Shown piece by piece: positions 1 to 64,000 of a stretch of DNA of 64,000 bases (positions within the stretch are counted from its first letter, which is position 1; each line of letters starts with the position of its first letter). The DNA comes from Dipteronia dyeriana (taxonomy: Eukaryota > Streptophyta > Magnoliopsida > Sapindales > Sapindaceae): assembly GCA_032871835.1 (NCBI GenBank), contig CM065295.1:68380687-68444686 (forward strand), given 5' to 3'. The notes below the pieces were generated by a model. It was given only the letters and a program-made list of their open reading frames with translations. It searched no databases and was not told where the DNA came from. A program made the position numbers and the translations under genes.

Positions 1-904
1 GCCAATTCCAAATGAAAGATTTGGGAGAGACGAGTTATGTTCTAGGGATGCAACTTATAAGGGATCGTAAGAACAAACTCATAGCACTTTCTTAGGCATT
101 ATATATCGACAAGATTCTTATGTGATTTTCGATGCAAAACTTTAAGAAAGGTAATTTACCTTCTAGGCATGGGGTTCACTTGTCTAAGGAATAGTGTCCT
201 TAAACACCTCAAGAAGTTGAGGATAACATCGGCAATAGGTAGTCTCATGTATGCTATGTTATGCACGAGACCGGACATCTGCTATGCAGTGGGAGTAGTC
301 AGCAGATACCAGTTCAATCCAGGATTGGATCATTGGGTTGTTATCAAGACAATTCTCAAGTATCTTCGGAGAACGAGATACTATATGCTAGTGTATTCCG
401 GATAAAATTTCATCCCGTTAGGATACACGGATTCTGATTTTCAGTCAGATAGAGATTCTAGGAAATCCACGTCTGGTTCAGTATTTACCCTGGGTGGTGG
501 AGCCATTGTGTGGAGAAGTATCAATCAATCTTGCATTGCTGATTCCACCATGGAAGCAGAATATGTAGCCGGTTGTGAAGCTGCTAAAGAGGTTGTTTGG
601 CTACGAAAGTTCTTAAGTGATCTGGAAGTTGTTCCAGATTTGGATATGCCTATCACACTTTATTGTGATAACAGTGGTGTTGAGGCTAATTCCAAAGAAC
701 CAAGAAACCATAAGAGAGGGAAGCATATAGAGAGAAAGTATCATCTCATTAGAGAGATAGTGTAGAGAGGAGATGTGATCTTCACCAAAATAGCCTCACA
801 AGACAATCATGCTGATCCATTTACGAAAACCTTACCGGCTAAAGTGTTTTTGGGTCACCTAGCTGGTCTAGAAATACGAGACATGCCTCATGCTTTAGTG
901 TAAG
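1..904 (+). pseudogene. Ty1/copia pol remnant: end of RT and RNase H
   Basis: This is the 3' end of a copia polyprotein. The end of the reverse transcriptase is recognisable by the segments MKDLGE, YVLGMQL, SAIGSLMYAMLCTRPDI and LKYLRRTR. It is followed by the copia RNase H with YTDSDF, TSGS, ADSTMEAEY, YCDNSG, NHKRGKHIERKYHLIREIV and DPFTKTLP. The reading frame is broken repeatedly. TAG at 93-95 and 763-765 stand where the family has Gln, TGA at about 123 where it has Arg, further stops lie near 180, and there is at least one frameshift near 220. The 5' part of the element is outside the window; the same sequence in copy B shows what precedes it. Not functional. Confidence 0.93.
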
Positions 905-912
905 TGAGAGAT

Positions 913-2314
913 TGTTGGGGTTTATGCCCTAAAGATGTAATTTGTAAATGGATTTATGAAATAAATAAAAGGAAAAGTTCAATTCATTCTTGTTGTGTTG
1001 TTTATTATATAACTTGTGCATATATTTAACATCCAAGATTGCCGGATGTAATCTCGAACTGTGTATATGAGTGTCATATACATATGGATATAGTAAGAGA
1101 CGTGCAATCTAAAGAGTCTATAGATAGCAAATAAAGCTGGGTACTTTATTTGTGGTTAATCTATAGCTGCGGTCCATTCAGTAATGTACGGTGATTCTAT
1201 TCCGAATCATTCATATGAGATATGGGAATGGAGGCACCATGTATGATGTAATCATATAGGACTGGGCCATGATCTATATAAATCTCTCACCAAGATCCAA
1301 TTACCGATGAGATTCATATATATCAACTAATTATGGCTATATGTGGGTGATCTTAATCCCGAGTGTCTTATCAACTCCTTCAGGTTATATCGTGGTCTTT
1401 GATATACCATGGGTGAGGTCAGATGCATTTCCTGATCAATAGGCTCCGTATGTTGGGATTACGGTTTGACTTGTGGTTAGGAAGGTTTGTACACAATAGT
1501 GGAATCCACTCCTTCTTGTGAGAAGTAAACGATAGTTCCCTTAAGGGTTGATTCAGAGCTTGGACAATATGAGTGCTCTCCTAATTTCATGAGGAAATAG
1601 GATTTATTATCCATTAGAGAATCAATGGTACTTAAAAGATATATGTAATCAGAGGGGTATAACAGATATTATGACTCAACTCTAATTATGAACTATTGTG
1701 GGGGATCACACTATGTGTAATAGCTATATCGATGGACACCGAGTTGTATTGGTCTGTTTAAAAGCGTCTATAGTTGAGAGAGTGCAACTTCGGGTTTTTA
1801 GTGGAATAACACCGGAGTTAATAATAAAGGAATATTAATTAAAGAGTTTAATTAATGATTCCGAGGATTATTGGAGCTCAAAATACTGTGGGTCCATTAG
1901 GGTCATGGTTAATTAACTGGATTGTCCAATTAATTGTATTTATTCGGAAATTAATTGAATAATGAGATTATTTAATTAATGAATGTTAATAGTTAAATTA
2001 ATTAAATAATTAGATTATTTAATTATATTGATAATTATGAATTATGAATTAACTATTAATTGGAGGGTGTTAGTTGATATATGGATTTAGGCGTATTTTT
2101 ACTAAATCATTTATCTAAGTATTTGAATTTAAGTTTAAATTTAAAATACTTATTATCACTTTTAATATATTAGATATATTTGAAAAGGATAATTAAAATA
2201 TATATATCAATTAATAACACAAGAGGTTACATTGGATGCAAATTGGTGTGTACACATGAAACAATAGTCAAAAGAAGAATTTGCATATGATACAAATACT
2301 TGATACACACATAT

Positions 2315-2354
<40 letters not shown>

Positions 2355-2976
2355 AAAAGAATTAGAGGCGTTATAGATATATATTTGGCAGAGGCGTGAT
2401 AGATATATATAATTTTGGCAGAGGCGTGATATATATATATATATACATATTTGCAGATGCGTGAAAGATAGATTTGTGAAAGAAAAAAAAAGAAAGTTTT
2501 TTTTGTTTGGTGCACATATCGAGACGAAAAAAAAGAAAAAAAAAATACATTGTGCTTTGTGTGCAGTGAACAAAGATATATAGATATATATATTGTTTCA
2601 TGCTTTGTGTGTTTTTGAAACACATAGAAGAAAGAGTTTCTTCAATTTCTCTACATCCTCCATTCAAGTTCTTGAGACCGTGACACACCCACACGCAGTT
2701 ACCAGTCCCGAGAGATAACGAGGAAGATCGATGATTCAGACATGAGCACATCGTAAAGTGAAGGAGCCTCCAAACGTTGGTAAGACTTTCTGCTTATTAT
2801 TATAATGATTACAATTTCCTGTGTATACATATATTTTATTATTGTAATAATTTTATATGTATTAGTTTCAAAAATAATTACGATCCAAAGTTCACTGGTC
2901 CCAGATACAGGTTATGATCTGTATAAAAATTTTAAAACCTAGTTCCGCTGCGTGACTGGTAAATAGGGTTCCAACA
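913..2976 (+). mobile_element. Copia 3' LTR, about 2.06 kb
   Basis: The LTR starts TGTTGG directly after the pol stop and a purine-rich AGTGAGAGAT. It ends CCAACA, so the ends form the expected TG...CA inverted repeat. A TATA-like ctatataaat at about 1274-1283 and an AT-rich 3' half are present. A (TA)n run (2319-2351) and a degenerate minisatellite of about 30 bp containing GCAGAGGCGTGATA (2355-2465) lie inside. The length is long for a copia LTR. No second LTR is visible in copy A because the element enters from outside the window. Confidence 0.85.
2319..2351. repeat. (TA)n microsatellite in copia LTR
   Basis: Uninterrupted TA dinucleotides. The copy B equivalent at 38309-38341 has the same length. 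Confidence 0.95.
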
Positions 2977-3715
2977 AAAAGCCGGGATCTGTTTAGGACC
3001 AAAATGAACAAAAACATATGAACTAACGTATATTAAGTTGTGTTATGTGTGAGGCATATTGTCTTGATTTACTGCAACGGTGAATAGTTCAAGATCATCT
3101 ATATCCACTGCGTCACCAAGTAAATCCGATATGTTTTCACTAAGGTAAGTTCAAGTCCCAAAGACACTTCTCGCGATGCGTAACACTTGTGTTCCCATCA
3201 AATGCATTCACTTAGTAGTCTAAGGTCGTAGCATAAGTATAAAATCTTAAATTTCGATTCAAATATAGGGTATTGTTGGAATTTTGAATAGAATTCAAGA
3301 GTCATGTCTATTCATTAGAAAATTGTGTCTCTTCATCAAGAGACGCAACTCTTCCAAAAGATGTGTGTTAACCAAGAGACACATTTGAGTTTATAAATTA
3401 GAATGAAATTCATTCCAAAATACAAGAGTTTTAATAAGAATTTGATAGAAGTTCCAAAATACAAAAGTCGAAATGACTTAGGCTACCGCTTTGATAAAAA
3501 TCTCTTTCCCTCTCGTAGAGAACAACCCTTCTTTCCAACTGGAAACCTTTTTCTAGACCCTCTCTTTATTCTCATTAAAAATCTTCCTTTTATTCCTTCC
3601 TACCATTATTGGAGAGACCCAAATACTTATCACCGGATTGGGCAATCTTCAAATCAAACAACCCTAAAATATCTTTCTTCAAGCTATCACAAACATTTGG
3701 ACCGAAAGTTGTTGA
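2977..3715. other. Unannotated segment between copia LTR and the next element
   Basis: AT-rich sequence. It has an open frame of 132 codons at 3403-3801, but that frame overlaps the start of the next LTR and shows no family motif. I would not call it a gene. No repeat structure or RNA gene is recognised. Confidence 0.5.
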
Positions 3716-4671
3716 CGGTGATTTTTGGATCTTTGAAAAGTCAATCGTTAAACATTAACACGCAAGTAGATCGAAGTTTTAATCAGTCTAGGGTTGAATA
3801 ACCAAAGCCTTTTTCTCCACGTGGATGTGATAAGATTTGCTCATATTTGTGAATGATAATGTAGAAAAGTAGAAAATAAAAGATAAATCAAGCATAACAC
3901 GTATTTTACGTAGTAAAACCCCAAGGCGAAATAACATTCACGGTAGTTGGTGACAGCGAAAAGAAATTCATTATGAATAAAATGATTACACATTCAATCT
4001 CTCATTCTCTCTTGCTATTGCTATGTTTTTTTACGTATAGATCGATACCTAGATCGTTAGATTTTCTGACACCTAGATCGTTAGATCTCTCTCTTAAATA
4101 TAATGAGAATATGAGTCTATTTACATATGCATAGAACCCTGATCTTTATTGAACAACTAAGGAAAAATGGTAGTGTTTAACTAGAACTTGTTACTTATTG
4201 AAGTCGTATTTAACTCCTTTCTTATTTCGGAGATCTTGCACATTGAATTAGAATCTTTGTAGTACTTATAGTTGAGTAGTCCGTTTAGGACTTATTTCCT
4301 ATGTACAATCTTCTAGAAGAGCAGCGTTATTGTTTGATCTGGACTCTTTGATATGCAAGAGGAAATAATAATATTTCATTATTGGAATATGGTTCTAGAT
4401 TCCTTGTTTAGGTAGGATTCTTCTTTATATTTGAGTTGTAGTTAAACTTGTGTCACTATCTTAACTGGGCATCTCTTAGCCAATCGTTTCCCAACCTGAC
4501 CGGGTCCTCTTTCACCGATCAGTTTTGCTACCTGATCGGGTTTAGACCTATCTTGACCGATCGGTTTAGCTTGACCACCCAGTCCAGTAACATCAACTTT
4601 GACTTGGGTGAATGTTGATCGGTTGACTTTCCCGACCGTGCCTATTTTACCAAATCGATTCACTATACTCA
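3716..4671 (-). repeat. Left LTR-like repeat of the LARD-like element
   Basis: Aligns along its length with 11984-12967. Shared landmarks are ggtgatttttggatc, gtctagggttgaata, gataaatcaagcataacacg, a tagatcgttagat tandem motif, gagtagtccgtttaggact and catcaactttgacttgg. It has two units of a 24-bp repeat (4044-4091) where the right repeat has three. If the element reads minus, this is the 3' LTR. Confidence 0.75.
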
Positions 4672-5410
4672 ACGAAAGGGATTTGAATAGTTTTTCCTTT
4701 GCTTTTTTTTTACGCTCGGATCCTCTCGCTCATCTAGGCGAACTTGAGACTTATTTTTAGCGTTGTTTATCTTTACTTGAATCCATCTTTGAGCGGATCT
4801 TACTGGTGTTCGGATCCTCTTTTATCCTAGTTTGGCTTCGCTTTGATCCATTTTTGAGCGGATCTGACTAGCACTCGAATCTTTTTTCACCTTTTCTTGA
4901 ATCTATCTTTGAACATATCTTACTAAGGCTCAAATCCTTTCTAGACGGGGTGTCTTAGCCTGATCTTGTCTACCCGAAACATCTTTTCTTTCTCCGTACA
5001 GTACTTTGTCAACTAAAGCTTTTATCGCTGCGTATAAGATTTCCTTTAAAGGCAAGTTTTGACAATCTTTTGAAGTTTTAGTGCTTGAGACAACTTGAAA
5101 ATTTCAAAGTTGAAGACCATAAGAAGAACTGATTAAGGTTTCCCTGAGTAACGTCTTTCCTTACAAGCTGAGAAAAATGTAGTAGATGTAGTTGCTCTTA
5201 GAAAAGTAAGATGGCGCTCAATCGAGATTTTGTTTCTTAGCATCCACCCCCTAAGGCCACTGCCGTATATATACATGTTCATGGCGAGTTCGAGGCTCTT
5301 GTTCTCCGGGTGTTCATATTGCTCGAAATCTACCCCTGACATCGTTTTTCATTTAGAAGTTGATGTCGATGTGCAAAGTAAGAACCATACTTTAGGCACA
5401 TTAGTTGCCA

Positions 5411-5439
5411 CCCCCCCCCCCCCCCCCCCCCCCCCCCCC
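5411..5439. repeat. Poly-C run, 29 C
   Basis: 29 consecutive C followed by tt and more C. The copy B equivalent (41401-41455) is 55 long with one A near its start. It lies inside the LARD-like element. Confidence 0.95.
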
Positions 5440-6239
5440 TTCCCCCCATCCCCCTTTTTTGATCCGAGTAGACTTTCTACCATGTTTGTTGGCTCTTAGA
5501 CTCTATCTTTAGCTGATCAGAAACTCTAACCAATCGGATTCTATCTTTGACCGACCAGAATCTTTAGCCGAACAAGTTCTATCTTTTGGTCAAACAAATT
5601 TTATCTTTCACGGAACATATTCTTCCTTTTGGTCAATCTTTCTTATAGATCGATCTATGTTTTTATCGATCCTTTTTGTGGATCGATCTTTTTTTTTCCG
5701 ACCTTCCGGCTACTATTTCTGTAAAAGAAAAAGATATTTTATGTTTATGAATACAATTTAGACTTTTGACTTACTTGTATTCAATTTTGACTATTATTGG
5801 CTCTTCTACAATTGTTCCCTGGTTTTTACACTTCTTGTAAATTGTTCTAAAGGCTCGGTCGCCCGATAGATAAGGATTTAGGCTTTCTGGCTCAGGGCAA
5901 CCTGAAAACTTATTTTGTGCCGTGAAGGGTCTTGACTCACCATATCTAAGTTTTCACCCACCTTATGGGGTTCTTAATTGATTTTAAGCCAACTTTAAGG
6001 CATTCAGATCATGTTGCCCAGATCTAGCTTTTGAAAACCTCCTGGCTGTTTTTCTTTTTGTGCGATTGTCCATTGGAGTCTTGTATCTGCACATTTTAAA
6101 CTTAACAAAAATATAACTTAAGTAGAAAAAATCTTTACCCTATTTTCTTTTCAGAATGCTAGATCGTTAACAGTACTTTATTTGCACTCTGTCAGTTTTA
6201 GAGCTGATATTGCTTTATCTGTATCTAGTCAGTTTCCTT

Positions 6240-7620
6240 TCCAGCCGATCTTTCTCAATATGATAAAATATCTCATTGGACTCGATCATCTAAGTATCCC
6301 ATTAGACTCATTATTCTAACCAATTATCTTATTAAAACTAATCATATGAGGCTGATCAATTATCTTATTGAACCGATCAGTGTGCTTTGACGGATGATTG
6401 GTATTTAAGTTTGTCTGCTCGAGCTTGCTCACGATGAAAACATGATCAGGTATTGACCGATTGTTTGGCTGACTTTTGGTGACATTGCACACTTAGTTAC
6501 CGATACTCTAGTAACAATGCTGGCTTCTCAGCCGACATATCTTTACCAATAACGATACCTTCTTAAATGCTTGAGCTGAGCATCTTGATATACTTTTTGA
6601 AAGGATTTGCTCGGTGAGCTGTTGAGCATATTATCGACTTTTGTTTCAAGCTGAGTAGCTCACTTAACTTAATTGGAACAAGTACTGAACCGATTTTAAG
6701 TCTGAGTAGCCCATTGGCTTAGTCAATTTGTACGCTTTATTATACTTGATCGATTTGCCCAAGTATCTCGTTACCTTGTAACAAGCGAAATCTTAGCCAA
6801 GAATCTCTCCAATTGATTTTAATACCCTAGTCTGACCAAGTATCTTTATTACACTGGTCACTTCTAGATCTGATAAGTTACCTTGTCGAGTTGATCGTTG
6901 TGGATCTGATCAGTTATCTTTATTGAACTGATGACCTTCGGACCGATCAAATATCTCATTATATTGATCATTTTATAACTGATCAGTTATCTCCGCTCTG
7001 GTCAATGGTTCCAATTGATTCGCTCGGGTCGCTTTTGATCAGTCTTCATTTGCCAAGTAGTTTTTTTTGCTTGCCTAAGTTGAGTATCTCATTTGACTTA
7101 ATTGAACCAAATGTCACATGGATTGGTTTTAAGTCCGAGTAACCCATTCACTTAGTTAACTGGTTTGCTCGAGTGCCTATTTACCCCGTAACAAACTGTA
7201 TTCCTAACCAAGTATTTTGATATGTTTTTATATCGAGTATCTAATTACCTTAATCTGATCAAGTATTTTATTATGTTGATCAGTTTTGTGGCCAGTCAGT
7301 TATCTTTTTGGCTGACCATTTTTTATATAATCAACTATCTTATTTGCTGATCGTTTTTGACCCGATCAACTATTTTATTAGCTGACCATCTTTGATCTTG
7401 ATCAATTATCTTATTAGCTTATTTGTCTTTGACCCGATTAGTTATCTTATTAACTGTCGAACTTGGTCTGATCAGTTATCTTATTAACTTACCATCTTTG
7501 ATTTGATCAGTTATCTTATTAACTGATCATTTTTTACCCGATCAGTTGTCTCATTAATTGATCAAATTTGGTCTGACCTAATCATTTATCTTGTTAACTG
7601 ATCATCTCTAGCTGGTTGTG
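6240..7620. repeat. Degenerate tandem repeat array in the LARD-like element
   Basis: Dozens of diverged units around GATCAGTTATCTTATTA, alternating with an AACTGATCATCTTTGACCC-like half; the period is about 35 bp in the clearest part (7280-7620). Looser relatives such as ccgagtatctcattgac extend leftward. The array has no coding signature. The same motif reappears at 9000-9190. Confidence 0.75.
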
Positions 7621-8942
7621 TGAAGAATCTTTGACCTTGCTTGTTTTGGCTACTCACGATCAATCCTAATATTTACCAAGTAGTGTTCTTTGGGACCATT
7701 TTCATGGTATCTAATTTATAGACACTTGACTTTTGTCTGGCAACTAGGTTACTAAGACGTCTCTCAGTAGTCTGTTACTCAAGATTCGTTACGATGGGGA
7801 TGATTTTCATCTCATTTGCTTAACTTATCTTAGCCGAGTATCTGGTTAACTGGCATTGAGTATGAGAATTTCATTACCCCATCCAACTTTCTACGCATCC
7901 CATAAGGTATCTAATCATCTGAATGTGCTCTAATAGTGCTTTTAATGCACCCATTTAGTTTCGATGAGTATGCAATATCCTTTTTTTGGACTTTACTTTT
8001 GGCCCTCTCACTTGGCTCCCCGAGCACCCTTTGCCTAAGCAAACTCGGGTGTTCGGGCATGTCTCTGTGTGACGGAGATAAATTTTGAACACTTTTACTT
8101 GGATTTTGTCTAGCGAATTTCTCTTTTAATGATCTTTTGAGTTTTTTGACGTTTAGCCAGACTTGGTCCGATCTAATGGTCTTTTGAGATTTTAGACGTT
8201 TAGTCGGACTTGGTCTGATCTTTAACACTTCATTGAGTGCGAACGCCTTGTTTAAGCAATCTCTATCTCTTTGTGCTGAGCATGTTAGTAACATTTGCAT
8301 AAATAAGAAACATATATAAATGTTGAACATGAATAGTTAGATCCATGCCTCGTACCGCCTACGATTGTTGTTTATGATATAGTACCCATGAATTCTTCAT
8401 AAAGGGTGATTTGTATGAAAAACATACGGTATGAATTTTGTAAAATATTTGTGTTTGTAACATCTATCATGCAATTGATAATCACACTATGGCAATATAT
8501 GTATGCATGATCTAATGTTAGGAGAAATATGCAAAAACTACATATGTTGCATATCACGTTAGAAACATAGTATAGATGAATAAGAGTGAAGACAGTGTTT
8601 CACAATCTTTTACCTCCCCATTATCGTTATTCGGCTATGTAGTCTAAAGAATCTTGACCCTTCTGTGTAGTGGGTATTTCTATCTCTGTTGTAGAGTTAT
8701 GATGCCCTGAATATTGTCAAACATTCCATAATTTGGTGATCTTAGGACCTTCCATGAATTACAATGATCTATCTAATTCCATTTTTTTACAAGGAATGAA
8801 TGGATTTTTGACCACGAGCAATCCTCTGATCAAACCGTCGAGATTGAGATGGTCTGTTGCTACTCAACTTTTTGCATGTGCTATGAGGTGGTGATTGATC
8901 TACAAGCTTTCATCTTATACTTCCACTTCCGTTTTAGTCTAT

Positions 8943-8945
<3 letters not shown>

Positions 8946-8994
<49 letters not shown>
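8946..8994. repeat. (TA)n microsatellite
   Basis: About 24 TA units between two blocks of the GATCAGTTATCTTATTA repeat. Copy B (44962-45012) is one unit longer. Confidence 0.95.
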
Positions 8995-8996
<2 letters not shown>

Positions 8997-8999
8997 TTT

Positions 9000-9190
9000 A
9001 TCTTATTACACTGATTACTTTACGACTGAACAGTTATCTTATAACATTGATCAGTTATCTTTGATCTTGAAAAACTATCTTATTAGCTGGTCAACTTTGG
9101 CCCGATCAGTTATCTTATTACACTAATCAACTTTGGTCTGATCAGTTATCTTATTACAATGATCAACTTTAGACCGATCTGTTATATTTT
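9000..9190. repeat. Second block of the GATCAGTTATCTTATTA repeat
   Basis: About five units of the repeat seen at 6240-7620, with a period near 36 bp (for example tatcttattacactaatcaa and tatcttattacaatgatcaa). Still inside the LARD-like element. Confidence 0.75.
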
Positions 9191-11983
9191 TTTATCCATC
9201 AGCCGAATCATCTGGTTACAGAAGTGACTTTGCTAAAAACTGCTTTGCAACTGTGATTTTTTTTTTAACGTAGCATGCTCATTTGCTGTGATGTGCTACC
9301 CCTATCCCCCTATTAGTTGTTAAAGTAGGTTTAATTTGAATAGAGTGCTTTTAACCTCACATCTTTTTTTAATGCTTTACTGAGTAACCAGTTGGGGTAT
9401 CTGACAGAATGGTGAGCTGAAATATCTGCAATGGCTGAATACCTCTAGTGAAACTGAGCAGTTGTGATGAGTTGAGTAGTTCTACCAAACTGAACATCTA
9501 TGGCAAACCAAATAGGTTAACACTTAGGTTTTGCTGCATCGTTCGCCGGTTGTATGTGGTAGAGTTCTTTCAAAATAATCTTGGTGAGGCTAAGAAAGTG
9601 AAATATTATCAACTTATAATTGCCGCACATGTGGTCCTGATCTACTGATTATATTGCCACTCATTTGAGAGACCCAGAGCCAGTGTAAGGTTTCTATAAA
9701 GCCATTTCATGCTTCCGACAGTCGATTGCCCACCATTTAGTTGATGTTTGCTTTGATATGATCATAGTTTGGATTCTTTATCGATATATTAAAGCTAGAA
9801 AGCCTTTAGGAATCCATCTTTTCCGAGTTGAATCTGATGAACCTCTCACGGCCCTAAAGTCTAGTTGTTTATCCAGTAAATTCTTCAGTTGTTATCGGTT
9901 CAGCTGATAACAGATAGCTTATTTGACTCAACTGACAATCGGATTGTGATATTTTCTACATCGAGGTGAACTTTTCTTTAAGTGCATCTTGCACTTTTTT
10001 TTTACCAAACTCTGTTTGCAAATTCGCTTTCTTGTGTATCTCCTAACATTGATACAATAGATAATCCTCCCCCTAACACCTTTTTTCTTATCGGGCTTGC
10101 TATTATCTTGGTGCTTCATCTGTTTATGCTGTAGTCGTAGGGATGATCTAGATTTTTATGGATGTGACCCATTGTAGTAACTCCATTAAGATCTGACCTC
10201 TCGTCTTGGTTTATCTTTTTTAATAGACCATACCACCTTTTTTCAACCGAAATTTTTGATAGACCAGACTTTATCCTTGGTTGACCAGAAACTTTAATCG
10301 ACCAAATTCTATTTTTTGCCAACTAGAATCTTTGACCAAGCAGATTATATCTTTGGCAGCCGATAGCGTGGTGCCGTATAGTAATTGATGATTGCAATCA
10401 CGGTTAGGAGTTTTGTTGACATGTCCGATCAAGATACTTTCAGAAAGTAACATTATCCGAGTCAAACTTGTTTATCGGATTGTTTTAAAGCATCTGGCGG
10501 GCTCCAGTTATGATTATGGAGTGTAAATAATAAGATATACTTTCTCAGAGAATAAAAGATAATGGTTAGTCATAAACAAGTTTTATTCGTATGGCATAAC
10601 ATGTCTGATAGAATAGAATCTTTATATTAATAGGAAATATCAAACCCGGATTGATAAAGGTAGTTATTAGCAATAAGAGGCCAATGCTACTCTTCCATAT
10701 CTGACCGGGATACTAAGGTCATATGTTCTGTCGTTTGTTGAAACCTTTAAGCGCAACGAGATGAAATTTGATTCCCGCTTGCCGAGGCAAGACTTAATTC
10801 TTGAGCTAGCATTTTCAAATTGTTTTCTATACCAAGCATGTGAGTAGTGTTCGCACAAGTAATAATAATCATGTACTTAATGAGACCAAATATTTGGGAG
10901 CGATTAACTCATGCATGGTACTGTTAATGATTATTGTCGAAATTTGATGCCTATAAATCTATGATAGACAACATTCGTGTAAGGGCTGTAAAAGTTGTTA
11001 GACATACTAATTAAGTATGCACTACATGTTCATAGACTTATGTACACGTATTATGTATTGTGTATGAGAAAAATATGCATGGATAAATATGTAAATCGAT
11101 AACATGCATTTATATTATGTCTGCAAAATATATTGATAAAACCATAAGATTAAACATATAAAAATCGACTTACCTCGGGTACTTACCGGATTCGGAGTCT
11201 AGTCATTTTATTCTTAGATCCTTCACAGTTGAATTGATAAAGAACTGAGTGGGTTCAGTTGAGAATTGACATTGGGTGTTCTATACCAAGATGGCTCAGT
11301 TTCTGACATATGTCAAGGTAAACTTGTCATCAGATCCCTATTTACACCATACCACAATGTTCTGGAGATTGTCAAATACTCATCGGGATGAATTGCATTA
11401 TGAATAATGTATCCTTAGAAATATCTATGTAACTAGTTTACAACAAAATCCACGGCTCGTGATTTTGACTTCTGTAGAGGGAGATATGCCTATATTAGTG
11501 TTTGCTAGTCAGATCAGAATTCTATCCATGATCTGTTTTCTTCAATATTACGGGAGCTACCAAAAATTGTTCGGATTGATCTAGGCTACAAACCATATAT
11601 TCTTGGAAAGCCTTGGATGTCTAGTTTCCAGTGGTTCTTACGGTTTATAAATCTGAGTTTTGTAGTGGAAGATATACTCATTTGATGCCCACAGGTCAAC
11701 AATTCTACAACATGCGACAACTCTCATCTTTTTTTTTTGTAAGTTGTTGGAATGGGAAAGCAATTCCTCAGACGAATTTTTGACACTAAGAAACTTCTTG
11801 AATCTTCTTCCTTCGAATCTAGTCACGACTGAGGCTCCTGCTTTGGGCTCCCTAACACTTACAATAGTGGTTTGATGGGGTGTTTCATATGTAAGATCCA
11901 TATCAGAATTCTTTATGTGGTCTATTCATGAGGGTTCCTCAAAGTTAAGTTCTTTCCCCTTCCTTCTAATGCCAATTTTTTTA

Positions 11984-12967
11984 TGGTGATTTTTGGATCG
12001 TTGAAAGCATCACCACCAAACATTAACATGTAAACAGATCGAAAATTTAACTAGTCTAGGGTTGAATAATCAAAGCCTCTTTCTCCATGTGGATGCGATA
12101 TGATTTTCTCGTATTTGTGAATGATAATGTAAAAAAGTAGGAAATAAAAGATAAATCAAGCATAACACGTATTTTACGTGGTAAAATCCCAAGGCGAGAA
12201 AACATCCACGGTTGCCAGTGACAATGAGAAGAAATTTACTATGAATAAAATTATTACACACTCAATCTCTCATTCTCTCTTGCCGTTGTTATGTTTTTTT
12301 ACGTATAGATCGATAGATAGATCGTTAGATCCTCTGATACCTAGATCGTTAGATCTCTTGATACTTAGATCGTTAGATCTCTCTCATTAATACAATGAGA
12401 ATATAGGTCTATTTATATGTGCATATAACCCTAATCCTTGTTGAATAAGTAAGGAAATGTGGTAGTGTTTAACTCAAACTTTTTACTTATTGAAGTCGTA
12501 TTTAACTCCGTTTTTGTTTCGAAGATCTTGCACATTGAATTAGAATCTTCATAGGACTTCTAGTTGAGTAGTCCGTTTAGGACTTATTTCTTGATTGGTG
12601 TGCAATCTTCTAGAAGAGTAGAGCTATTGCTTGATCTGGACTCTTTGATATGCATGAGGAAATAGTATTACTGCCTTATTGAAATATGGTTATAGATTCC
12701 TTGTTTAGGCAGGATTCTTCTTTGTATTTGAGTTATAGTTTTACTTGTGTCACTATCTTTACTGGGCATCTCTTGGCCGATCGTTTCCCAATCTGATCGG
12801 GTCCTCTTTCCCATATCGATTTTCTACCTGATCAGGTTTAGACATATCTTGGTCGATCGGTTTAGCTTGACCATCCTGTCTAGTAACATCAACTTTGACT
12901 TGGGCAAATGATGACCAGTTGACTTCTCGACAGTGCTTATTTTACCCGATCGATTTACTATACCCGA
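11984..12967 (-). repeat. Right LTR-like repeat of the LARD-like element
   Basis: Partner of 3716-4671. It contains three tandem 24-bp units built on tagatcgttagatc (12312-12384). On the minus strand a TATAAATA box lies at about 12410. Homology to the left repeat fades after ctatac at about 12965. Confidence 0.75.
12312..12384. repeat. Three tandem 24-bp units in the right LTR-like repeat
   Basis: Units beginning gatagatagatcgtt, gatacctagatcgtt and gatacttagatcgtt. The left LTR-like repeat has only two (4044-4091), so unit number changed after the two repeats separated. Confidence 0.85.

Positions 12968-50789: not shown

Positions 50790-50792
<3 letters not shown>
49490..50792. mobile_element. 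1.3-kb TIR element (copy B)
   Basis: Counterpart of 13471-14772, with inverted arms at 49490-49551 and 50730-50792. One more base than copy A, in an AT- or A-rich run. Confidence 0.6.

Positions 50793-50793
<1 letters not shown>

Positions 50794-50851
<58 letters not shown>
50794..50851. repeat. (GT)13 followed by 32 G (copy B)
   Basis: The G run is 25 shorter than in copy A and the GT run about two units longer. This is the largest contraction between the copies. Confidence 0.95.
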
Positions 50852-50852
<1 letters not shown>

Positions 50853-51244: not shown

Positions 51245-51484
51245 ATGACAATAGCAAGATGGGAACAACTTGCCCCACAGAGTTACTCGTCGAATGACCG
51301 CCAATTAGGTGAATTGGCCAGAACTGCCCCACAGCAAACACGAGGTATCATTTATGAAACAAGATTGCGGTATATTTTCCATGAAGCTAATCTTATATTA
51401 GGCAAGGCAATCACCTACAATCCGGTGGTTGATAAATCCATCAATGAATACGAAGATCTGAAGAAACGTTCCTGCAAGGAATGA
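51245..51484 (+). CDS. Unidentified 79-codon ORF (copy B)
   Basis: Identical in predicted sequence to 15246-15485. Function unknown. Confidence 0.3.
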   Translation: MTIARWEQLAPQSYSSNDRQLGELARTAPQQTRGIIYETRLRYIFHEANLILGKAITYNPVVDKSINEYEDLKKRSCKE

Positions 51485-51608
51485 ATATCATAGTACCATA
51501 AACGCACAAGGATTCGATTCGCCAAGAATCTCGACAAGATATGATCCCCTTTAGATCTCGCCTGATAATATTTCTTGCTTGCACAACAAAGACCCTTATA
51601 TAAACATA

Positions 51609-51913
51609 GGGTTAAATCGTTAATATTAATGACCTTCTCACACCTTTGAACTGTTATTAGATGTCTTGATAAAAATGTTTTTATTTCAAAAACATCCATT
51701 GTGGACTAACAAACAATATTTATTAAATGATTGAGTTTTGATATTAAAAGGTCATTTAAGTTTCAATTGTATAAATCGAACATTATACCATCTGACTTTT
51801 ACCAAATAAAGTATTGTTTGTTAGTTCACAAGGGGTGTTTCTAAAATAAAAACATTTTTATTTAGAGATTCAATAATAGTTCAAAGGTGAGAGGATGTTT
51901 TTAATATTAAACC
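51609..51913. mobile_element. Mutator-like MITE (copy B)
   Basis: Counterpart of 15610-15914 with the same flanking tataaacata repeats. The LTR fragment continues at 51914-52239. Confidence 0.85.
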
Positions 51914-52621
51914 TATAAACATATGTATCAAGCAGAAGTAAAGAGAGAGCAACCACACGCAATTCATCACTTGTAATCGCAATTATCTTTTACATAGTAA
52001 AATCTCTTATCTATCGTTACAGCGACCGTGGTTTTTTTCTTGTATTAAGGGTTTTCCGTGTAAAAATACTTGTGTCCTTACTCTTTCTACACTTATCTAT
52101 ATATGTTATACGTTCATCAAGTTTCTCACTTATCAAAGAAGCAACGTGATCTCATTTTATAGAATACCTTAGGTGTCGATCTACATATGTGTCACCGCTG
52201 ACTAGATTTTCTAGAAATCGACGTCAATACATACAAACTACAAAAGCCAAATTCATGTCCCAACAATTAATGCATATGTAATCATAAAAAATCATTTGAC
52301 CTATGGTTGGTTTTTCTTTTCATAAAAATGAACCGAAAGTAATAATAAAAAAGCATTGAAATAGTGAAAACTAGAACCCCCGCGAACATTAGAAGGCGAT
52401 GTATGAAATAAACTCTAATTTAAATAAAAATACACACGATTAAGTTTCAATAACATGAATGAAATTATAACATGAATTTAAAAACACAAAACCATAAAAT
52501 GTAGTACCACATAACTTAAAAAAATCGTCCAAAACATAACTCAAATGATGTGACTTTTTTTGTATGGCTAACATTACTCAATTCTATTACTATCAAAGGG
52601 ATGCGCAAATCTAGATTTGGT

Positions 52622-54572
52622 TTATTTGCCATGATCACTCAAAGATTTCTTCTTTGCCTCTAGTTCTTCTTTGTTCACATTGGAAACTCTAATTTCTTGA
52701 GCAATGCTACACATATTTTGTTTTGTGTTGGTCAATTAGGAATCCAACTCCGTTATTGCATTCATCTTCATCTCACTTTTCCTCTCCAACTCAAAACTAT
52801 GACTTTGAAGCCTTAAAATCTGATTATTTGTCTTTATGATTTCATGAGCATTTGCATCCATCTCAACTTGAAGACATGACACCGCTCTCTTCAAATCCTT
52901 GTATTCTTTATAGATCAAGGAGGATTTTTTTTAAGTTGGATTCCAGACTAGCCACAGAGTTTTCAACTTGTCTGGCAAACTCTTTTACTTGGAGAGTCTC
53001 TTCACTCAAGTGAGAAACCTCTTCGACAATCATCTTCAACATCGAAAGTTGATCAGAGTTCAAACTATTGTCATTGTGTAACAACTTTATTGCAAGATCT
53101 ATAAGCTCATTTAACTTAGCAGAATCATCAGGTATGTGATCATCCATAGCGAGAAGAGAAGAGAGACTTTTTCGGGGATCCACAAGATCGATACCGGGAG
53201 GGGTTGGTTCTTTTGTGGAGCTACAGAGAGTGAGGGTTGTGATTGGACCTATATATATATATATATGAATATATATGTTAGAAGTTTAAAGTATTATAAT
53301 AGACTTGTTGGGACCTACCAAGATCAAATAGTTCGGATATCTACTTCCATAAATCGGGAGAAAACTCCCCATAAATACATTTAATATACGTATAGTGAGA
53401 CTCAAACCCCTCACCATCAATATGGAAGGGAGATGCACTACCACATATGCTAAGAAGTGATGTGCATATGTTAGAAGTTTTAAAAATAAGGATGATTTAT
53501 ATATTAGTCAAAGCATGATATTTCCCCTTTCAAAAACCAAATACAATATACAATTCTAAGCATGAATTTATTTATCTTGTGTGCAAATGGTTCAGATTTC
53601 AAGTCAAACATAATTAACTTAGTTAATAATCATCTTCGGCCAATAAAATTCACTATAATTGTGTAATTTATTTTTTCTCTTTTCAAATAAATGAAAACAA
53701 AAAATAAAAAACTAAATACGTAAGAGAAATTATGAGATAATAATCCAATATGGTTAAAGAAAGACAAATACCAAATCTAATATTAAAAGAGCACTATAAT
53801 CAATGGTTCTATGTCACTTAATTAATATTATTTTGTCACTAATTATAATTTTGGACAAATGAAAAATGACCGATATTAAATGAAGTTAAGACATTTAATA
53901 ACATATGGACTCGAGAAAAATAAAAAACATTTAATAATAAAAAGTTCAAAACTTAGATCTATTTTTTCTTTTTCGATTTGTTGTTGAATTTAGAGATTGT
54001 AATTTTAACGAGTCATGCATATAAGAAAAATAATTAGAATTTTAATGCAACAGATATTAAAATGTAAATTTAGTATTTCCTGAATTTGTTATCGAAATAA
54101 GATTTTGCACTTTTAATGACGCACAAAGACTATAACAATTATGAGAAATTAATTAAAACAAAAAATCCAATTCTAGTTTTTTGTCGATTTCCTGCTGGAT
54201 TTAGATTTTGTACTTGTAAATATTTAGATCCAATCTTTTTGTTGTTTTTTCACTTATATGACTTATACAAATGTTTGTGTTCTCATATTCCTTTTTTAGT
54301 TTAACCAAAAAAAAAATCATAAGACAAAAATCACTTGGTACTCTCAATTAGTTCTCGTGTTAACACATGCATAAAAGCATTTTATTGTCTTTTATATTAT
54401 TGTTATAAAAAGAAAATTATTAAACTAAAAGATCTAAAGATTGGATAATATTAATAGAGATAGCTAGCTTACGTATTTGCTCAGTGAGTTGAGGACTAGG
54501 TGGTGGTTCAAGAAAATTGTTATTTTCGTTCACATCTCTTGCCCTCTTCATCTCCTTATGATAATCAACCAT
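52622..54572 (-). pseudogene. Two-exon coiled-coil gene (copy B)
   Basis: Exon 1 is 54572-54473; exon 2 runs to 52622. The A8 frameshift (52925-52932) and the TAA after ELDS are the same as in copy A. One extra A near the exon 2 acceptor (CACAAAAG at about 53212) does not alter the frame if the acceptor lies just after it, which favours that splice choice. TATA box at 54661-54651. Confidence 0.55.
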
Positions 54573-55594
54573 GTATAGAGCAATTCAAATTATAAAAAAA
54601 AAAATCAAAATAAAATCATTGTTTGGTTTTCTGGGTGTAGAGATTGTTAGTTATTTATATATGTTGCATAGGAGGGTTGTAATTTGTTGCATATTTGTAT
54701 TACATGTCCCATAATTAAGATTAATACAAGAAACAATTATTAGTTATTTTTTAAGGTATGAACTTTAACGTGTGTGAAATTAAACCTTTTTTTTAAAGAG
54801 TGTATGAAATTAACCTTATCTTGGAACATTTAATATATTTATTCTAAGAGCAAAATAAATTTTAGAGAAATAAGGTAATTGATGTTTTTCTATTTATGGC
54901 TCCTTTATATTAAGAGAAATTTAACTTATATACTGTGTTTGTTAGATAATGCTAGATTTGAATTGTATTATTTTAATCCTAAACCACTGTTTGACAAGGA
55001 AAAAGACCTGGTATTTTATCTCTCAACAACCCTCTAGTCCCGTCGATATGAAAGGGGACTAAATAAACCCATCTATATTCATGGGTTTATTATTACTGGA
55101 ATTGAAATGATGTTGCTTTTGTTTTTAATTTTATAATAATTTCATATATGAATTAAAATTTAATTTTATGTCAAATCTCATCTCAATTCGATCTAATTTC
55201 ATAAAATAGTTTAATCCAATATCTCACACCAAACAAGGTGTTACATTTTGAACATGACATTTTGAATCCTACATTAACATACATACAAGAATCAGATGTT
55301 ACATTTCATAACTCATAAATTAAGTTATACTACTCATAATCTCATTCATGAATACATGCATGCAAAGACAAAAGATTAACTCATTATAATAATAAAGAAT
55401 AAAACAGACCCAAATGAAATTATGAACAACCAATACATAATTAGCACTAATGTAGGTTTACAAATATCCCCTATTGAGGATTACACATCAAGATAAAGAA
55501 ATACAAAAAGAAGGGTAATTATATAAAATAGAAATACATATAGAAGAGTGATAAAAAAGACCCAAGTGATAGTCAAGAGTCCTCAAGCTTCCAT

Positions 55595-55714
55595 TTATGC
55601 GCATATCCTCTTGGTCAAGAAAATTTTTCCTTTTCCCTTTGAATTTCCTCCAAAGATGGATAGAAGAAGTTCGAGGTGGTGGATGGTGAGGCATCCATGG
55701 AGGAAAACTTTCAT
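55595..55714 (-). CDS. Possible small-peptide ORF (copy B)
   Basis: Same as 19595-19714, with the TATA box at 55830-55823. Confidence 0.2.
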   Translation of the reverse strand: MKVFLHGCLTIHHLELLLSIFGGNSKGKGKIFLTKRICA

Positions 55715-56902
55715 GAATTCCTTTGGAGCTTTTTTCTCTCTTGATTAGTGTTTAAAAACAAAAGGATGGTGTTGTATGGTCTTGGATGTGTTAGGTGTAT
55801 TTGATTTCATACCAAAGTGGGGTATTTATAGAGTGGGAACTATTTTGTTTGAGTAAGTTGAGTTTGAAAATATGTAAATTATGGATGCACCTAAAAGTCT
55901 TTTGTTTAGTACATGAAAGATGACCTATGGTTAGTATCCATTTTTCTACAGCAACTACATAGAACTTAATAAGCACCTTTAAGGAAAGGCAACACATATT
56001 GGTTGTGCACATGCCAAATGTATAAATGGGTTACGCCAATATAGTGAGTGAAAACCGTCATGAAGTGTAAGAAAAAGGAAAAATCAAATAAGTGTTGAAA
56101 ATAAACAAAAAAAAATCTTTGATTAAGCTTCACAAGCTTAAAGGAGTATAATTTAAAATTGAGAATGCTTGGGTTGAAAAATAGAAATGGGTTGACGAGT
56201 CACATGCCCACACTCACTCATATGTTGAAACCTATTCTCTTAAAAGTAAAAATTTCGGATGATAATCGGTTTGACATTGAATGGAAAAGCTTAAGATGAA
56301 TAGATATTGATATGGTTTGCATGATGATGATTCATTTACTTCTTACATATGCTTGAAACAAAAATTCACACACATACACTTGCTTTACTTAAATGTGTTT
56401 GATGTACTAGCAATTATAGAAGAATTATGAGGAGATTGAAATATCGGTGTATCTCTCATAGTTTGTGAAGTTTATTTTGTTACATTTCTTTAAAATTGCT
56501 TGAGTATATGATTGTGTGGATATTATTATGAACAATATTCTATCTTGATCTTAGATAGAGCATTTTTTTAAAGAGGAGCATTGTATGCTAGGTTTTATTC
56601 TCTTTTATGATATGTTCACATGATTTGTTTTGATAAAAAAAAAGAAGGTATATTGTTTCTTTGATATCTTGAATCTTGAAAATGCATGATACTTATCTCA
56701 TATCCTTTGCTATGATTGTGAGTCATTGTTTACTTGTATGTTTTCATATATACTTGTTTACTTGGTCACATTTATGATATTTTGAGACTAACTTTTTGTT
56801 TATTCTACTCATGTTTGTTTTGTTTGTTCTATTCATTGTTTGTTTCTATGAAAAGATAACAATTTTGAGTGGGGTAGGTGTGCTTTTATTTGTCAAACTG
56901 AG

Positions 56903-57237
56903 TTGACCAAAATTAGTGCCTTTTGGCATCACTTTTTTTGTGCAAATCTTATGCCTTCTACAAATGCTACCAAGTTAAACAAAGAGAAGGTCAAGATAGT
57001 ATATGCATTGGTCACCAACAAGCCTATAAACCTTGGAGAAATTATAATGCAACATATAGAGAGAGCTTGGCTTATTCAACTAGGTTGGATATAAAACTAG
57101 ATTATCCAGGGTTAATAACTCATCTGTGTATGGCCCTTGGAGCTGAAAAAATTGAACGAGATGTGCTTATACCACCATTGGAGAAGTTTAATGAAAAACG
57201 TGTCACATTATGTCATACAAAAACAAGGGTGGGCTAA
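56903..57237 (+). pseudogene. Athila-type gypsy ORF fragment (copy B)
   Basis: Same two-frame fragment as 20902-21236, including the internal frameshift. Confidence 0.6.
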
Positions 57238-57728
57238 ATGATACTTTTAGACTTTTTAGTGATATTCAAGAGTTTAGTAATGTGTTAAGCTCAAATTATC
57301 ATCTGGATTGGGCCTTACAAATGCAAGAGAGCTTGCAATGTCAGGGAAAAAGATGTAGAAGCTAAACCGAAAGTGGGACAACAAAATGAGAGATCAAGGG
57401 CTTGGGAAAAAGCATTTCTTCAAGTAAGGCAACCACCTCCAAGTGATATGTGAGATCAACACACCGGTCAAAGTTCTTTGATGGCACTAGTGGCTAGTGA
57501 TCTCATATGTGATCTTGTGGTATTTAATCTTGTGGTATTTAATCTTTTCCTTTTGGCTTCAACTCATGTCAAAAAATGGGAGAAATATGATACATTATTT
57601 TAGCTTCTTCTATGGACTTTTAAAAAAAAATAGTATCTAGTATATTTGTATTTGTGGAAACCTTGAACTAGTTTTTGTTGGTTTCTAACTTTAAACTTAT
57701 TGTTGCATGTAATAACTTGGATGGGATT

Positions 57729-59322
57729 TGTTAACTGCCAAACCTAGCGACCAATCCAAAGAAGTATTTTCCATGCACCAAAGATGGAGCTGCAACGAGA
57801 TCGGATCCTCATCGGAACCCGATTCTGATGGAGCCACGACAGGATCCGGTCCCCAATTGAACCCGATTCTTCTAGACCCCGATCCCAATAAAGTCCGACA
57901 TAGTTTTCCCTACTGCTAAAGATAGAGCCCCAACAATATTCGGTCATCAACGAAACCTGTTCCTTCTTGAACCCGGTCTAGATTGAGCCAAGAAATGATC
58001 CAGTCCCCAATAGGACATGATCCTTCTAGATGCCGATCCCGATAAAGTCTAACTCCAATGCTGAGAGACCCGATTTATGCTAATGCCCAGTCACCAAGAG
58101 TAGCATGCTTCGAAGAACAAACCCGGACCAATTAGGACGAGCCTTCCCATTTTAAGGACCCACCACCAGGAAAGAAAACAGTAGATGGTTAAGAAATTAA
58201 TGCTACAGAAGACATAGAGAAGGAAAGATAGAGAACTAACGGTCGGGATCCCTCCAAAGCCGCACTTCCCCAATAGTCAAATCTCATCCCACTTAAGCCC
58301 TACTCGATTTCAACTATCCCATTCATAAAGAAGGAAGCTGCATTTCTCCAACAAAAAGGTTGTAAAAAGTCTCTTTCCGAATAGAGGAAAGCTTTGTGAA
58401 GAGTGCTTGATAGGTGTAGCGAGACAGGCGCTGACGATGTCTCCTACTAGGCAGAACAGTGAAAGCGACATGTCTCGCTAGCTATGAGCACCTCTAGCCA
58501 ACCAAAGCGATGCAGACCACAACATAAATGCCACGTTGACACCACTAAAGTGCCCAAATCGCCATAGGGAATAAATGGATCAATCACAACCCTCATGGGC
58601 GTGTGCCACCCACAAACCTGACCTGATTGGAGCAGTGAGGATTTGTTGACAGCCCTTTAAGTTAAAAAAAAAATCCTCACATACTCACTGAAGATCCAGG
58701 TGGATCAATCTAAACCTTCCAAAGCACACCACCCATACACACGATTCAAAGGGACGGTGAGGATCAGGTTAGGCATTTCCCGCCTAAAGGAATATCTCTC
58801 ACCTACCACCACCAAGTCACCCTATAAATATCCTATATCAAGGAGTGAAGAGGGTCGGAACTTCCAGCACCTAAAGAGAATTCAACTTGGGTATTACCCT
58901 CCTACAAATACCAACATATTGGTTATTCTACTTGGCTACTACCCTCCTAGAAACGTTTCCATATTGGTCACCCAATCGGGGTAATATCCTCATCCCTCCA
59001 TGATGCTCCATGGCATTTCCTAGAGATCTAGAAATTTGTACGCTTACGGTCAATATATGATGTTTCTTTATATGTATGCTTAATAAAGGCTCTTTTCACT
59101 TGATTATATTTCTCATCCTTGCCATCTCACACCACCTTCAGGACCAGTCTTGGATCCCAGCGTCGGTCCCGTTTAATCAGACGAGAGGAATCCCGGTAGT
59201 ATCCCTCCCTCTTATGTGAAAAAATCGAGGAAACCTGTTACCCAGTTCGAACCTACTGGGAAGCACTAGTACTCCGTGGCCATCTGGTGTCCCGAAGGTC
59301 ACACTCGATTTTCAGGATAACA
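57729..59322 (+). mobile_element. Ty3/gypsy LTR (copy B)
   Basis: Counterpart of 21726-23320, TGTTA...TAACA, followed by the same ACGCTGTCTGTGGGAAA primer-site remnant. It differs by a few 1-base indels. Confidence 0.65.
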
Positions 59323-60000
59323 ATTTTACGCTGTCTGTGGGAAATTCACTAGACCAACGTGCTTTCCCAATCTACTAAAGATCACCCTTTCATAAGAATT
59401 GTCACTCTTCGAACTTATTTGTCCAACAAAGAGGTTAAGGTCTTCTTAAAACAATTCGGACCTATCAAGACTTTGTTCTTATGTATCTACCCATGGGATT
59501 GTATCACCCGGAAGCGCTTCAGTATAGCCTAGCCCTTCTCGGGTGATGAGACCACCGACGGTGCCAACCTCAACAGAAAGTTTCCTCCCGCATAGGTTGA
59601 TTCATCATAATATGTTTCACCAGCATGTCACAACCTTTTTAGAAAAGCTCCGACAATATTTTCTTAGCCCCCACCCCAACAAGGCCGGGCCTAGCAACAT
59701 AATACCGGTCTTCGAAAGATTGGGTACCTCCGTAGTCTGACTCAGACCCGTCACCTCAAAGCCGTGCATACTCGATCTGATTTAGAAGCTCCCTCCGCTT
59801 TGGTTGCCTCTTAGAATCCATGACTAGCAACGACAGAGTTGAAAGATCCGGGGACAGAACGAAACGAAGTGAACCCGTAACAAAAGCAGACACAAAGACG
59901 GGGTCAGACGCGATCGGGATTTGAGGCACGGTACTTCAACTTCATCCCGGATAACAGCAAGAGGAATGACTTGATCGTGCCCAAATTGTGTTACATTTTG

Positions 60001-62596
60001 GCCCTCCATTCCTTTTACTTAGCTTGTTTTCGAGTGTGTTTTTGTGTATAATGGCTCTATTCTAATTCATTGCAGGCATTCAATGTATTTCGGGCATTGG
60101 AAATACAAAACGAGATTTTCGGGTACGAAACAAGTCAAAGTTCAAGAAATGAAGCCTAGTTCGTTGGTCCCATCGTGGGTCCATACTAGTGTAATGCGGT
60201 AAGGACACTCGTAAACTGGCTCTCAGAAGATTGCAAAATGAAAGTGTATAGGTACTGCACGAGTGACTATACCCACGTATTTTCATCTGCGAAGAAGACT
60301 TATATGGTCCACACTGGTGCACTACCCACGAATAAAAGACCTGAAGATTGGAAGAAATTCCCAATACGCAGGTATATACCCGCACATCACCCGCAATCTG
60401 AGACATAAAGATTGCAAGAAGAAGCCCAATACGTGAGTCTATTCTTACGCACTACCCGCGAACTGAGAGAAAGAGAAGAAGGCTAGAAGCCACTACGTGG
60501 GTCACTGTGCGGGACCATACCCATGTATATCGAGTAACCCTAACCGTACACTGCACCAGATACGCTGACATCATTTTTTTCAGAATATACCTTCTTTTCT
60601 GAAATCACACACACACCCTCACAACACTTCTCTCATCTTACATCACTCTTAGATCTAGGACCTCTACATCGCCCATTCAACCTCTACTTCACCAAAACCC
60701 AATTACCCACTCAAGGAGCTTTGAATTTGCAATATTTAGAAGATAAGAGAATTGAAGAAAGAGGAATCTCAGCACTCCAATGGTTTTTTCTTGACTCTTG
60801 ATTCTTTACTTTTCCCTTGTATTCATATTATTAGTAACTAAACCGCCTATGTGGAAGATAATGTAATGAATCATGGATTGTAAGCTTTCCATCATATTTT
60901 GAGTATTTAATCTTATTTAGTTCCATTCATTGTGCTTAATCGTGTTTAATATCTTCTAGAATTAAGTAGACACTCTAACTCTTAATTCATGAATGATGTT
61001 GAACTTATTTGAGTTTTTGAATTTATAATTGTTATTAGGCACTCCAACTCTTAATCCATTTAGATGCTGAATTTGAGCTTATAATGCATTTGATGCTTCT
61101 CTTGGATTGAGTAGGCATTCCAACTCTCAATTCATATTAGATGTTAAATTGTAATGTCTTCTTGGGTTGAGTAGGTGATCGTGCTATAAATGTTCACATT
61201 GTGCGCTCCCTTTACTTGGCTTTTGTTACCGTTTTTAGAGCATATTAGGTGTTTTAATGTTGTAAATAATTGTTTTCAGGTATTCTCAATGCTTCAAGGT
61301 CATTTTATTCCAAAATGGCAATAAGGAGACAAATGGATCAGGTTAGAGTGTTCAAACACTCCTCGGGAGTTCATACATTCTATCTCGTGGGAAAGAACTA
61401 ATGGAAAGAAGCAGCGGGAAAGCTACATCAACCCAGCGAGTTCAAATCTTCTCCCCCGCGAGAAATATCCAGCGAAGGAAAGTCACAGAGAAACTCAAGG
61501 AAGATCCCTTGAGTTCAGTCCTTCTGTCTCGCGGGAATGTAGCAAAGGAAAAACTCAAGAAAGATTCCGTGAGTTCAGTCGTTCTGTCTCGCGAGAATAA
61601 AGTCGAAAAAGGAAGCTACATAGGAAGATCTTGTGAGTTTACTTGCCTGTTTCATGGGAATGAAGTCGCAGAAAGAGGTGATTAAGTTGTAGGATTGGTG
61701 CTTGTAATTGCTTTAAGATGCATGCTTAGGATTATTGTGAATAAGTTTCATGAAAGAATGATTTTACATTATGGTTGATACTTGAGTGCACATATTCCTT
61801 AACAATTCATTAACCTAGTTTTAATCGATAATGTGTAGTTGTATTCTTAATTTTTGAGCATCTTAGCATAACTTAAGTAATTTTCTAGTGTAAGTAACTT
61901 TGATTTATAAGCTTTCTTTCTAATTAGATTGATTACTCTTTTCTCTGTGGGAACAATACCCATACTTGTGCCCACTATTCGAGTTGAACGGCTCGTACAC
62001 TTGCGATGGGTGAAAGACTCGCACGCCCCATTAGTTAGCCATTGTAGTGTAATTTAGAATAGCGACATTTTAGTAGAACTGGTTTGGGTGTGTTAGTATG
62101 CACTTCAACTCTTAGCCCATGTTAGATGTATATTAATGACTTTTAACCACATACACTTAAGGTGTTTTTAAACAAGCTCACTTGAATGGAAGTTATGGAT
62201 TGTGAGCACTCCAATCCAAGTCATCCTGACTAATAAATCTATTCGAGCATAATGAGACTTTTCTCCACACTCAATTTAGCACTCCAATGGTGGTTGTGGA
62301 TGAGGATTAAGTTGTTTTACAACCACACTTGTGGGTATATTGGCCTTAAATAGATTGAATCGTTTTTAAAAAAGACTGGATCATCCACCGTTCGTGTTTG
62401 AATTGCATTGACTCCCATACCTCTTACCATATCTTATCACTTCACATTCTCATTATCCTAGTTAAATTCTAGCTTTAGATTTAATTATAGTTTGCCTTAC
62501 GGACGATAACTCACTTGCCATTGTACTTATTTTGAAAACATTGTGAATATATTTAAGGTCTATATAAATTTATTTTTGACATTAGCAATATCACAA
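60001..62596 (+). mobile_element. LTR-like non-coding region (copy B)
   Basis: Counterpart of 24000-26590, including the 60-bp tandem repeat (61325-61676). Many single-base indels separate the two copies here. Confidence 0.4.
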
Positions 62597-62605
62597 ACGA
62601 CGCGT

Positions 62606-63327
62606 TGTCAGGAACCAATGCCTAATCCAAGGACAGAGAGTTCAAACAGATGGAAGAATAGATAAAGAAAATGGAAAAGCGCCTGGTAGAGTAAGAGAAG
62701 GATAAAGTGAAGTATCGAAGGATGAACAAAGACCTCTATGAAGAGATGAAAGCTTCTCTTTCAAGGAAGGTCAGGAAAGTTGTCCCCCACCCAAGTTCAA
62801 GATACCAGAGAATGTGTACTCTGGAGTGGATAACCCCTTTAGCCATCTAGAGTCCTTTGTACAACAAATGGAAGTTCCAAACGCCTTTAGGAAAGCCATG
62901 TGTAGGATGTTGCCTTACACCATCACCGACTTTGCCAAAACATGGTTCAGAAAGCTTCCAACGGGGATTGTTAACCTGGTTATTCGGGGAGTGAAGCCAC
63001 CTCCTAAGGACCCAGTTCTGCTACAGTATGTAGCACATGGGTGAGTAGAGTCACTTAAGTCCTACGCAAAGCGCTACCACAAAGAAATGATCCAAACAAG
63101 AGTATTTGAGGAGAAATAGACACTTATGAATTTCTAGAAGAATTTGTGGGTGGGAAAACTGTGGCGATCCATTAGTAAAGACAAGCTAGAGACATACCAA
63201 GAAGCATACAGCCGGGCTCTAGAACACGTGCAGTTGGATGAGCAGCTCTGCATTAAGATGGAGCACGACGAAGCACGTTTTATCAAACATTTCAAGAAGG
63301 ACCACCACAAGGAAAAGAAAGAGACCC

Positions 63328-63367
<40 letters not shown>

Positions 63368-63867
63368 TGGCCCGAGAGACCCCTAAAACTCCTGACGGAC
63401 CAGAGAAAAAGTACAAGTACTGTGACTTTCACGAGGACATGGGGCATAACAATTCAGAGTTTTACAGCAACCGCAATAGGATCGAAGGCATGGAGAGAAG
63501 CGGCCTGCTGATCGTATTTCTCCAACAGGTGAGGGATAGGATCAAGACTGGGAAACAAGTTCAGATAGAGCTATAAGAAGAAGAAGAAAGAAGAAAGAAC
63601 CAATGCAAGGATCTGATGGAGCAAGTCAAGATCATAAACACCATCAGCGGGGCCCAACCCTCTGGAACGTCAAACAATTCAAGGAAGAATCAAGCTAGAA
63701 AGGTGCCCAAATACTCTGCATGAGGGTAGGTGATGAGGGTCATCAGAGAGACTATAGAAGGCCCTTCCTTCAGCCATATCATATTCATCGAGGAAGATGT
63801 CCTTAACACAGTCCAGCCTAATGACGACCCGATGGTGGTCACTGTCCATATCACAAACTGCACTGTC
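62606..63867 (+). pseudogene. Tat-type gypsy gag and protease start (copy B), better preserved
   Basis: The same element as 26600-27860, but the gag core is open from the start of the family region: PENVYSGVDNPFSHLESFVQ, then QMEVPNAFRKAMCRMLPY, then TWFRKLPTGIVNLVIRGVK. The open stretch ends with a TGA at 63042-63044. Further stops (near 63116, and 63136) and the C36 run follow. It ends before the protease active site. Copy A carries indels at each place where this copy keeps the expected gag frame. Confidence 0.82.
63329..63364. repeat. Poly-C run, 36 C (copy B)
   Basis: One base longer than copy A (27323-27357). Confidence 0.95.
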
Positions 63868-64000
63868 TGGACTTTTTCAAATAAAATATAAGGACATTTT
63901 TGTACTTTTCTCCACCCTAAGGCTTAGTTAATAGTTAATTGAGATGAAATCAACGATTGACGAGAGGTCGGATGCAATTAAGGTTATTAGTTAATAATTA

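Follow-up and report, generated by a model that had tools for sequence, protein, structure and literature searches.

A 28-kb direct repeat on either side of a scaffold gap in Dipteronia dyeriana, most likely an assembly artefact

Organization of the repeat, the gap and neighboring elements

The window analyzed here, a 64-kb stretch of Dipteronia dyeriana DNA, contains two copies of one sequence in the same direction. Alignment of the sequence on either side of the gap matched positions 1-27993 directly with 35991-64000 over 28,050 columns at 99.633% identity, and only one run of N was found, located between the two copies. These are exactly the coordinates that an earlier note on this DNA had given for the repeat and the gap. 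Assemblies often use 100 N to stand for a gap of unknown size. The window is laid out as follows.

1..27993, + strand: copy 1, the left member of the repeat as far as visible, on contig A, which ends at 32130
27994..32130, + strand: end of contig A, without a partner in the window, terminating in TA repeats
32131..32230, no strand: scaffold gap, exactly 100 N long, the sole N run in the window
32231..35990, + strand: start of contig B, copia element
35991..64000, + strand: copy 2, on contig B, which begins at 32231

The limits of the match, 1 and 64000, are the edges of the window itself, placing any breakpoint outside the view. Because the repeat is truncated by these edges, 28 kb is a lower limit on its length; the duplication of 28 kb reported earlier is thus present as a match, with its size to be read as a minimum. 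The DNA between the copies had also been called unique. The two segments concerned, 27994-32130 and 32231-35990, are indeed without a partner inside the window, which does not imply uniqueness beyond it, as any partner would lie outside. Copy 2 begins (at 35991) within the copia element, the upstream part of which is 32231-35990, and copy 1 begins at the matching point of the element, together with the window edge. Within the window sequence there is no sequenced junction between the copies, and the only unsequenced place is the gap; a junction could lie there or beyond the window edges.

At the start of contig B, a copia gag stretch (32293-33072) was aligned with 3 of its 110 homologues. Against the two closest of those used it needs no frameshift, with three stops for P0007 and two for P0008; P0014, a more distant homologue, gives three stops and one frameshift. 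The four best named relatives are Acer proteins, at 76-80%. The element is further interrupted (35059-35701) by a 627-bp insert at 35067-35693 with an 8-base flanking repeat, ATCTTGAT, near-matching ends (TAGGGATGCAC and GTGCATCTCTA) and a GGGGAT-type repeat inside; we take it to resemble a non-autonomous hAT-type transposon. Elsewhere, a direct pair of ~1 kb (3706-4668 and 11974-12963, 83.9% identity) perhaps represents the long terminal repeat pair of an old retrotransposon. An inverted pair (31588-31911 and 15915-16228, 74% identity) and the segment 15605-15927, which adjoins its second member and matches its own reverse complement, are perhaps small inverted-repeat transposons.

Two coding features lie in the end of contig A.

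28128..28855, + strand: SEP3-like coding sequence, intronless, interrupted by three frameshift steps and a single in-frame stop
31068..31154, - strand: short frame, putative TOM5 (a label from the earlier note), 29 codons from ATG, open

Compared with full-length SEP3-like proteins, the first is identical to P0117 at 203 of 239 codons and to the Xanthoceras protein P0119 at 202 of 237 codons; a Xanthoceras protein ranks third among the matches listed. The frameshift alignment used 4 of 120 proteins listed, and 435 were found at 1e-80 or better. Codon identity to SEP3-like proteins is ~85%, and an A11 run is located downstream at 29057. This sequence is probably a retrocopy. Two 9-base candidates for its target-site duplication were set aside, being at about chance level by our estimate.

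Type and placement of the differences between the copies

The alignment of the two copies contains 57 difference events, with rows 26485 and 26487, which may be one event, counted as two. If a long simple repeat is defined, by our own choice, as a homopolymer of at least 8 bases or a dinucleotide of at least 5 units, then 16 events fall in such repeats, half of them in a single GT/G tract (14778-14820), and 41 fall outside. The earlier description of the copies as differing almost only in simple-repeat length is therefore not borne out. The 41 non-repeat events comprise 36 indels (33 of one base and 3 of two bases) and 5 substitutions; of the single-base indels, 30 are located in runs of 2-6 bases. 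All are confined to one part of the repeat, which is followed by a short clean one.

17212..27126, + strand: stretch of copy 1 containing 41 of 41 non-repeat differences from copy 2
27127..27993, + strand: final 867 shared bases in the window, with zero non-repeat differences

Over the full-length alignment, positions 1-17211 showed no non-repeat difference, substitutions included. Counted per 2 kb, the events number 2, 2, 4, 4, 10 and 19 from 16 to 28 kb, and each of the eight earlier bins holds 0. An even spread of the 41 events is rejected (Kolmogorov-Smirnov p ~1e-16), and an exponential rise, doubling every 2.4 kb, is favored over a constant rate with a likelihood ratio of 90; a probability that the tail holds every event depends on a cut picked post hoc. 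Sequence content is not supported as a cause of this crowding: two-base runs occur at 131/kb in 1-17211 vs 137/kb in 17212-27993, frequencies of run lengths 3-6 are close, and GC is alike between the clean and the error-rich parts.

The letters present in copy 2 and absent from copy 1 are T in 12 cases, G in 8, A in 3 and C in 0, a strand asymmetry that is better fitted by read error than by mutation. For the 16 extra letters in copy 1, strand asymmetry was not significant (p 0.21). Within the otherwise clean 1-17211, six simple-repeat loci differ, one of them by 26 bases; these argue against strict identity of the copies and are possibly alleles. Long runs of G, C or dinucleotides are difficult to sequence accurately. 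Very long G/C runs occur at 14796-14852, 50820-50851, 5411-5447, 41401-41463, 27319-27357 and 35586-35612, and in two cases their lengths differ strongly between the copies (57 vs 32 G, and 37 vs 63 in a C-rich tract). Such runs may themselves be consensus artefacts.

The rise in events does not continue to the end of the visible match. At the level of 26001-27126, ~15 non-repeat events would be expected in 27127-27993, a stretch delimited after inspection of the data, and 0 were found; the lone difference there is the length of the C run at 27323. Thus, within view the poor stretch has cleaner sequence both before and after it, and there is no simple fall in quality toward 32130. Our guess is that contig A switches to another read or corrected segment near 27.1 kb, by the C run at 27319-27357. 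Extension of the exponential rise to the end of contig A, which predicts ~96 events in 27994-32130, was dropped in view of the clean 27127-27993 and of the SEP3-like sequence, which has only 3 frameshift steps vs ~9 extrapolated indels (chance of three or fewer, 0.024); at a flat rate, ~6 would be expected (0.14). Since the SEP3-like sequence lies beyond the clean 867 bases and carries fewer frameshifts than the trend, its frameshifts may stem from either sequencing error or decay.

Frameshifts in the gag stretch

The side on which the errors lie was examined in one short stretch, where a retrotransposon gag sequence is present in both copies.

26740..26985, + strand: gag stretch of copy 1, split across several frames; alignment to any of 3 homologues requires 5 frameshifts
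62742..63041, + strand: same gag stretch in copy 2, a single open frame of 100 codons, the aligned part requiring 1 frameshift with any of the same 3 homologues

Six gag homologues were found, three of them with a precomputed PF03732 gag domain. All six match copy 1 across two or three frames; copy 2 is matched in one piece by four of them, and by the other two with a second, upstream piece in another frame. Frameshift-aware alignment, for which we took three of the six (P0001, P0002 and P0003), gave the same counts with every homologue used, five frameshifts in copy 1 and one in copy 2. Stops are equal in number and at corresponding places in both copies with P0001 and P0002, and number two per copy with P0003. 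On this comparison, we read the decay common to both copies as biology and the surplus frameshifts as belonging to contig A. The converse, that the errors reside in copy 2, is unsupported within the gag stretch, where the surplus frameshifts fall in copy 1.

Open-frame totals did not help to show which side carries the errors. Between 17 and 28 kb, frames of at least 60 codons number 35 in copy 1 (2816 codons) vs 33 in copy 2 (2684 codons), so that copy 1 shows no deficit and is slightly higher; near the C run at 27323, the longer frame belongs to copy 1. A Pfam search returned no family for three gag pieces, and at 63138-63383 it returned only matches below the curated cut-off.

Origin of the repeat and its consequences

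Because the indels crowd into 17212-27126 and the gag frameshifts number five vs one, the differences between the copies look like consensus errors of the left contig rather than divergence. The earlier note had offered two overlapping contigs of one locus among its explanations, and this is the best fit to a first 17,211 bases that are clean, followed by frameshifting indels in the left copy. The repeat is probably a homotype false duplication, in which two overlapping contigs of one haplotype were scaffolded without being merged. A single genomic locus would then be written twice, the tail of contig A and the head of contig B being the same haplotype DNA, with an overlap of ~36 kb provided that it reaches both contig ends and with its continuation lying past both window edges. 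Read depth in the tail of contig A would have been low. The assembler would have retained this tail, with its poor consensus over 17.2-27.1 kb, alongside the better contig B, and the scaffolder would have set A ahead of B with a conventional 100-N gap and no merge.

Published descriptions of this kind of artefact provide a comparison. According to the VGP report (PMC8081667), homotype cases arise from contig-boundary sequence that overlaps the primary path; its subsequent scaffolding leaves tandem duplicated sequence with an intervening gap and copies of unequal consensus quality. The present locus resembles this in having same-direction copies on one scaffold, at contig boundaries and with a gap between them. 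The two copies lie on two contigs that flank the scaffold gap, and their consensus quality is unequal, as seen in the indel-rich 17212-27126 and the gag frameshifts of copy 1, though 27127-27993 is clean. It differs in that at least 28 kb is visible here, whereas that report gives the size as often that of a corrected read (PMC8081667), and in that the quality drop is not steady toward the contig end. The visible 28 kb or more would be a long stretch for contigs that overlap by about one read, which counts against contig overlap, and the clean 27127-27993 has lowered our confidence in this reading.

The earlier note also considered haplotigs, and we find it unlikely that both haplotypes of a diploid plant were placed in tandem in the primary assembly. 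Two haplotypes are expected to differ by substitutions throughout, and 17,211 bases show 0 substitutions outside simple repeats, an outcome with a chance of ~3e-8 at 0.1% heterozygosity (with a 20% indel share assumed). At 0.01%, under the same assumption, the chance is 0.18, and the argument does not reach a nearly homozygous region, which would look the same. Heterotype false duplications share with the present locus tandem copies with a gap and inflated gene counts (PMC8081667 and PMC9516828), and heterotype cases are named as the main source of false duplication in three vertebrate genomes (PMC9516828). The gap between our copies and the six differing simple-repeat loci of the clean part would also suit two haplotypes. 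However, the heterotype class requires haplotype differences; non-repeat differences in 1-17211 are 0, and the remainder, mostly single-base indels, are gathered in one stretch and within gag break copy 1 alone. Of the two artefacts proposed earlier, overlapping contigs thus fit best, and haplotigs fit poorly given the near absence of substitutions.

The rival raised by the earlier note, a real tandem duplication of very recent date, appears improbable. It would span ~36 kb or more, its junction would fall in or close to the gap, and part of the left copy would have a poor consensus. Direct, near-identical copies are what a recent tandem segmental duplication generally presents, and an offset of ~36 kb would put the partners of the flanks past the window edges. 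Assemblers break at long identical repeats, which likewise speaks for a real duplication. However, neither junction nor breakpoint is sequenced here, and the errors of copy 1 would demand a separate cause. With 0 events in 17,211 bases, divergence is at most ~1.7e-4 (95% limit), and the event would be at most some ten to fifty thousand years old by plant mutation rates. That a true tandem duplication has doubled the SEP3-like retrocopy and adjacent genes, leaving 17 kb with no non-repeat substitution, is unlikely.

We conclude that the 28-kb repeat is most likely an ordinary assembly artefact, with no gene duplication, and that unmerged contig overlap is its probable source. The type of difference, its placement and the side on which frameshifts fall can help to separate contig overlap, haplotigs and real duplication without recourse to reads. 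Contig B offers the better version of the shared sequence, and frames that are broken where contig A is rich in errors are not to be read as biology. Were it real, the event would have duplicated a floral-gene retrocopy very recently and would be of modest interest. If it is an artefact, gene and transposon counts are inflated at this locus, and a recent duplication is mimicked.
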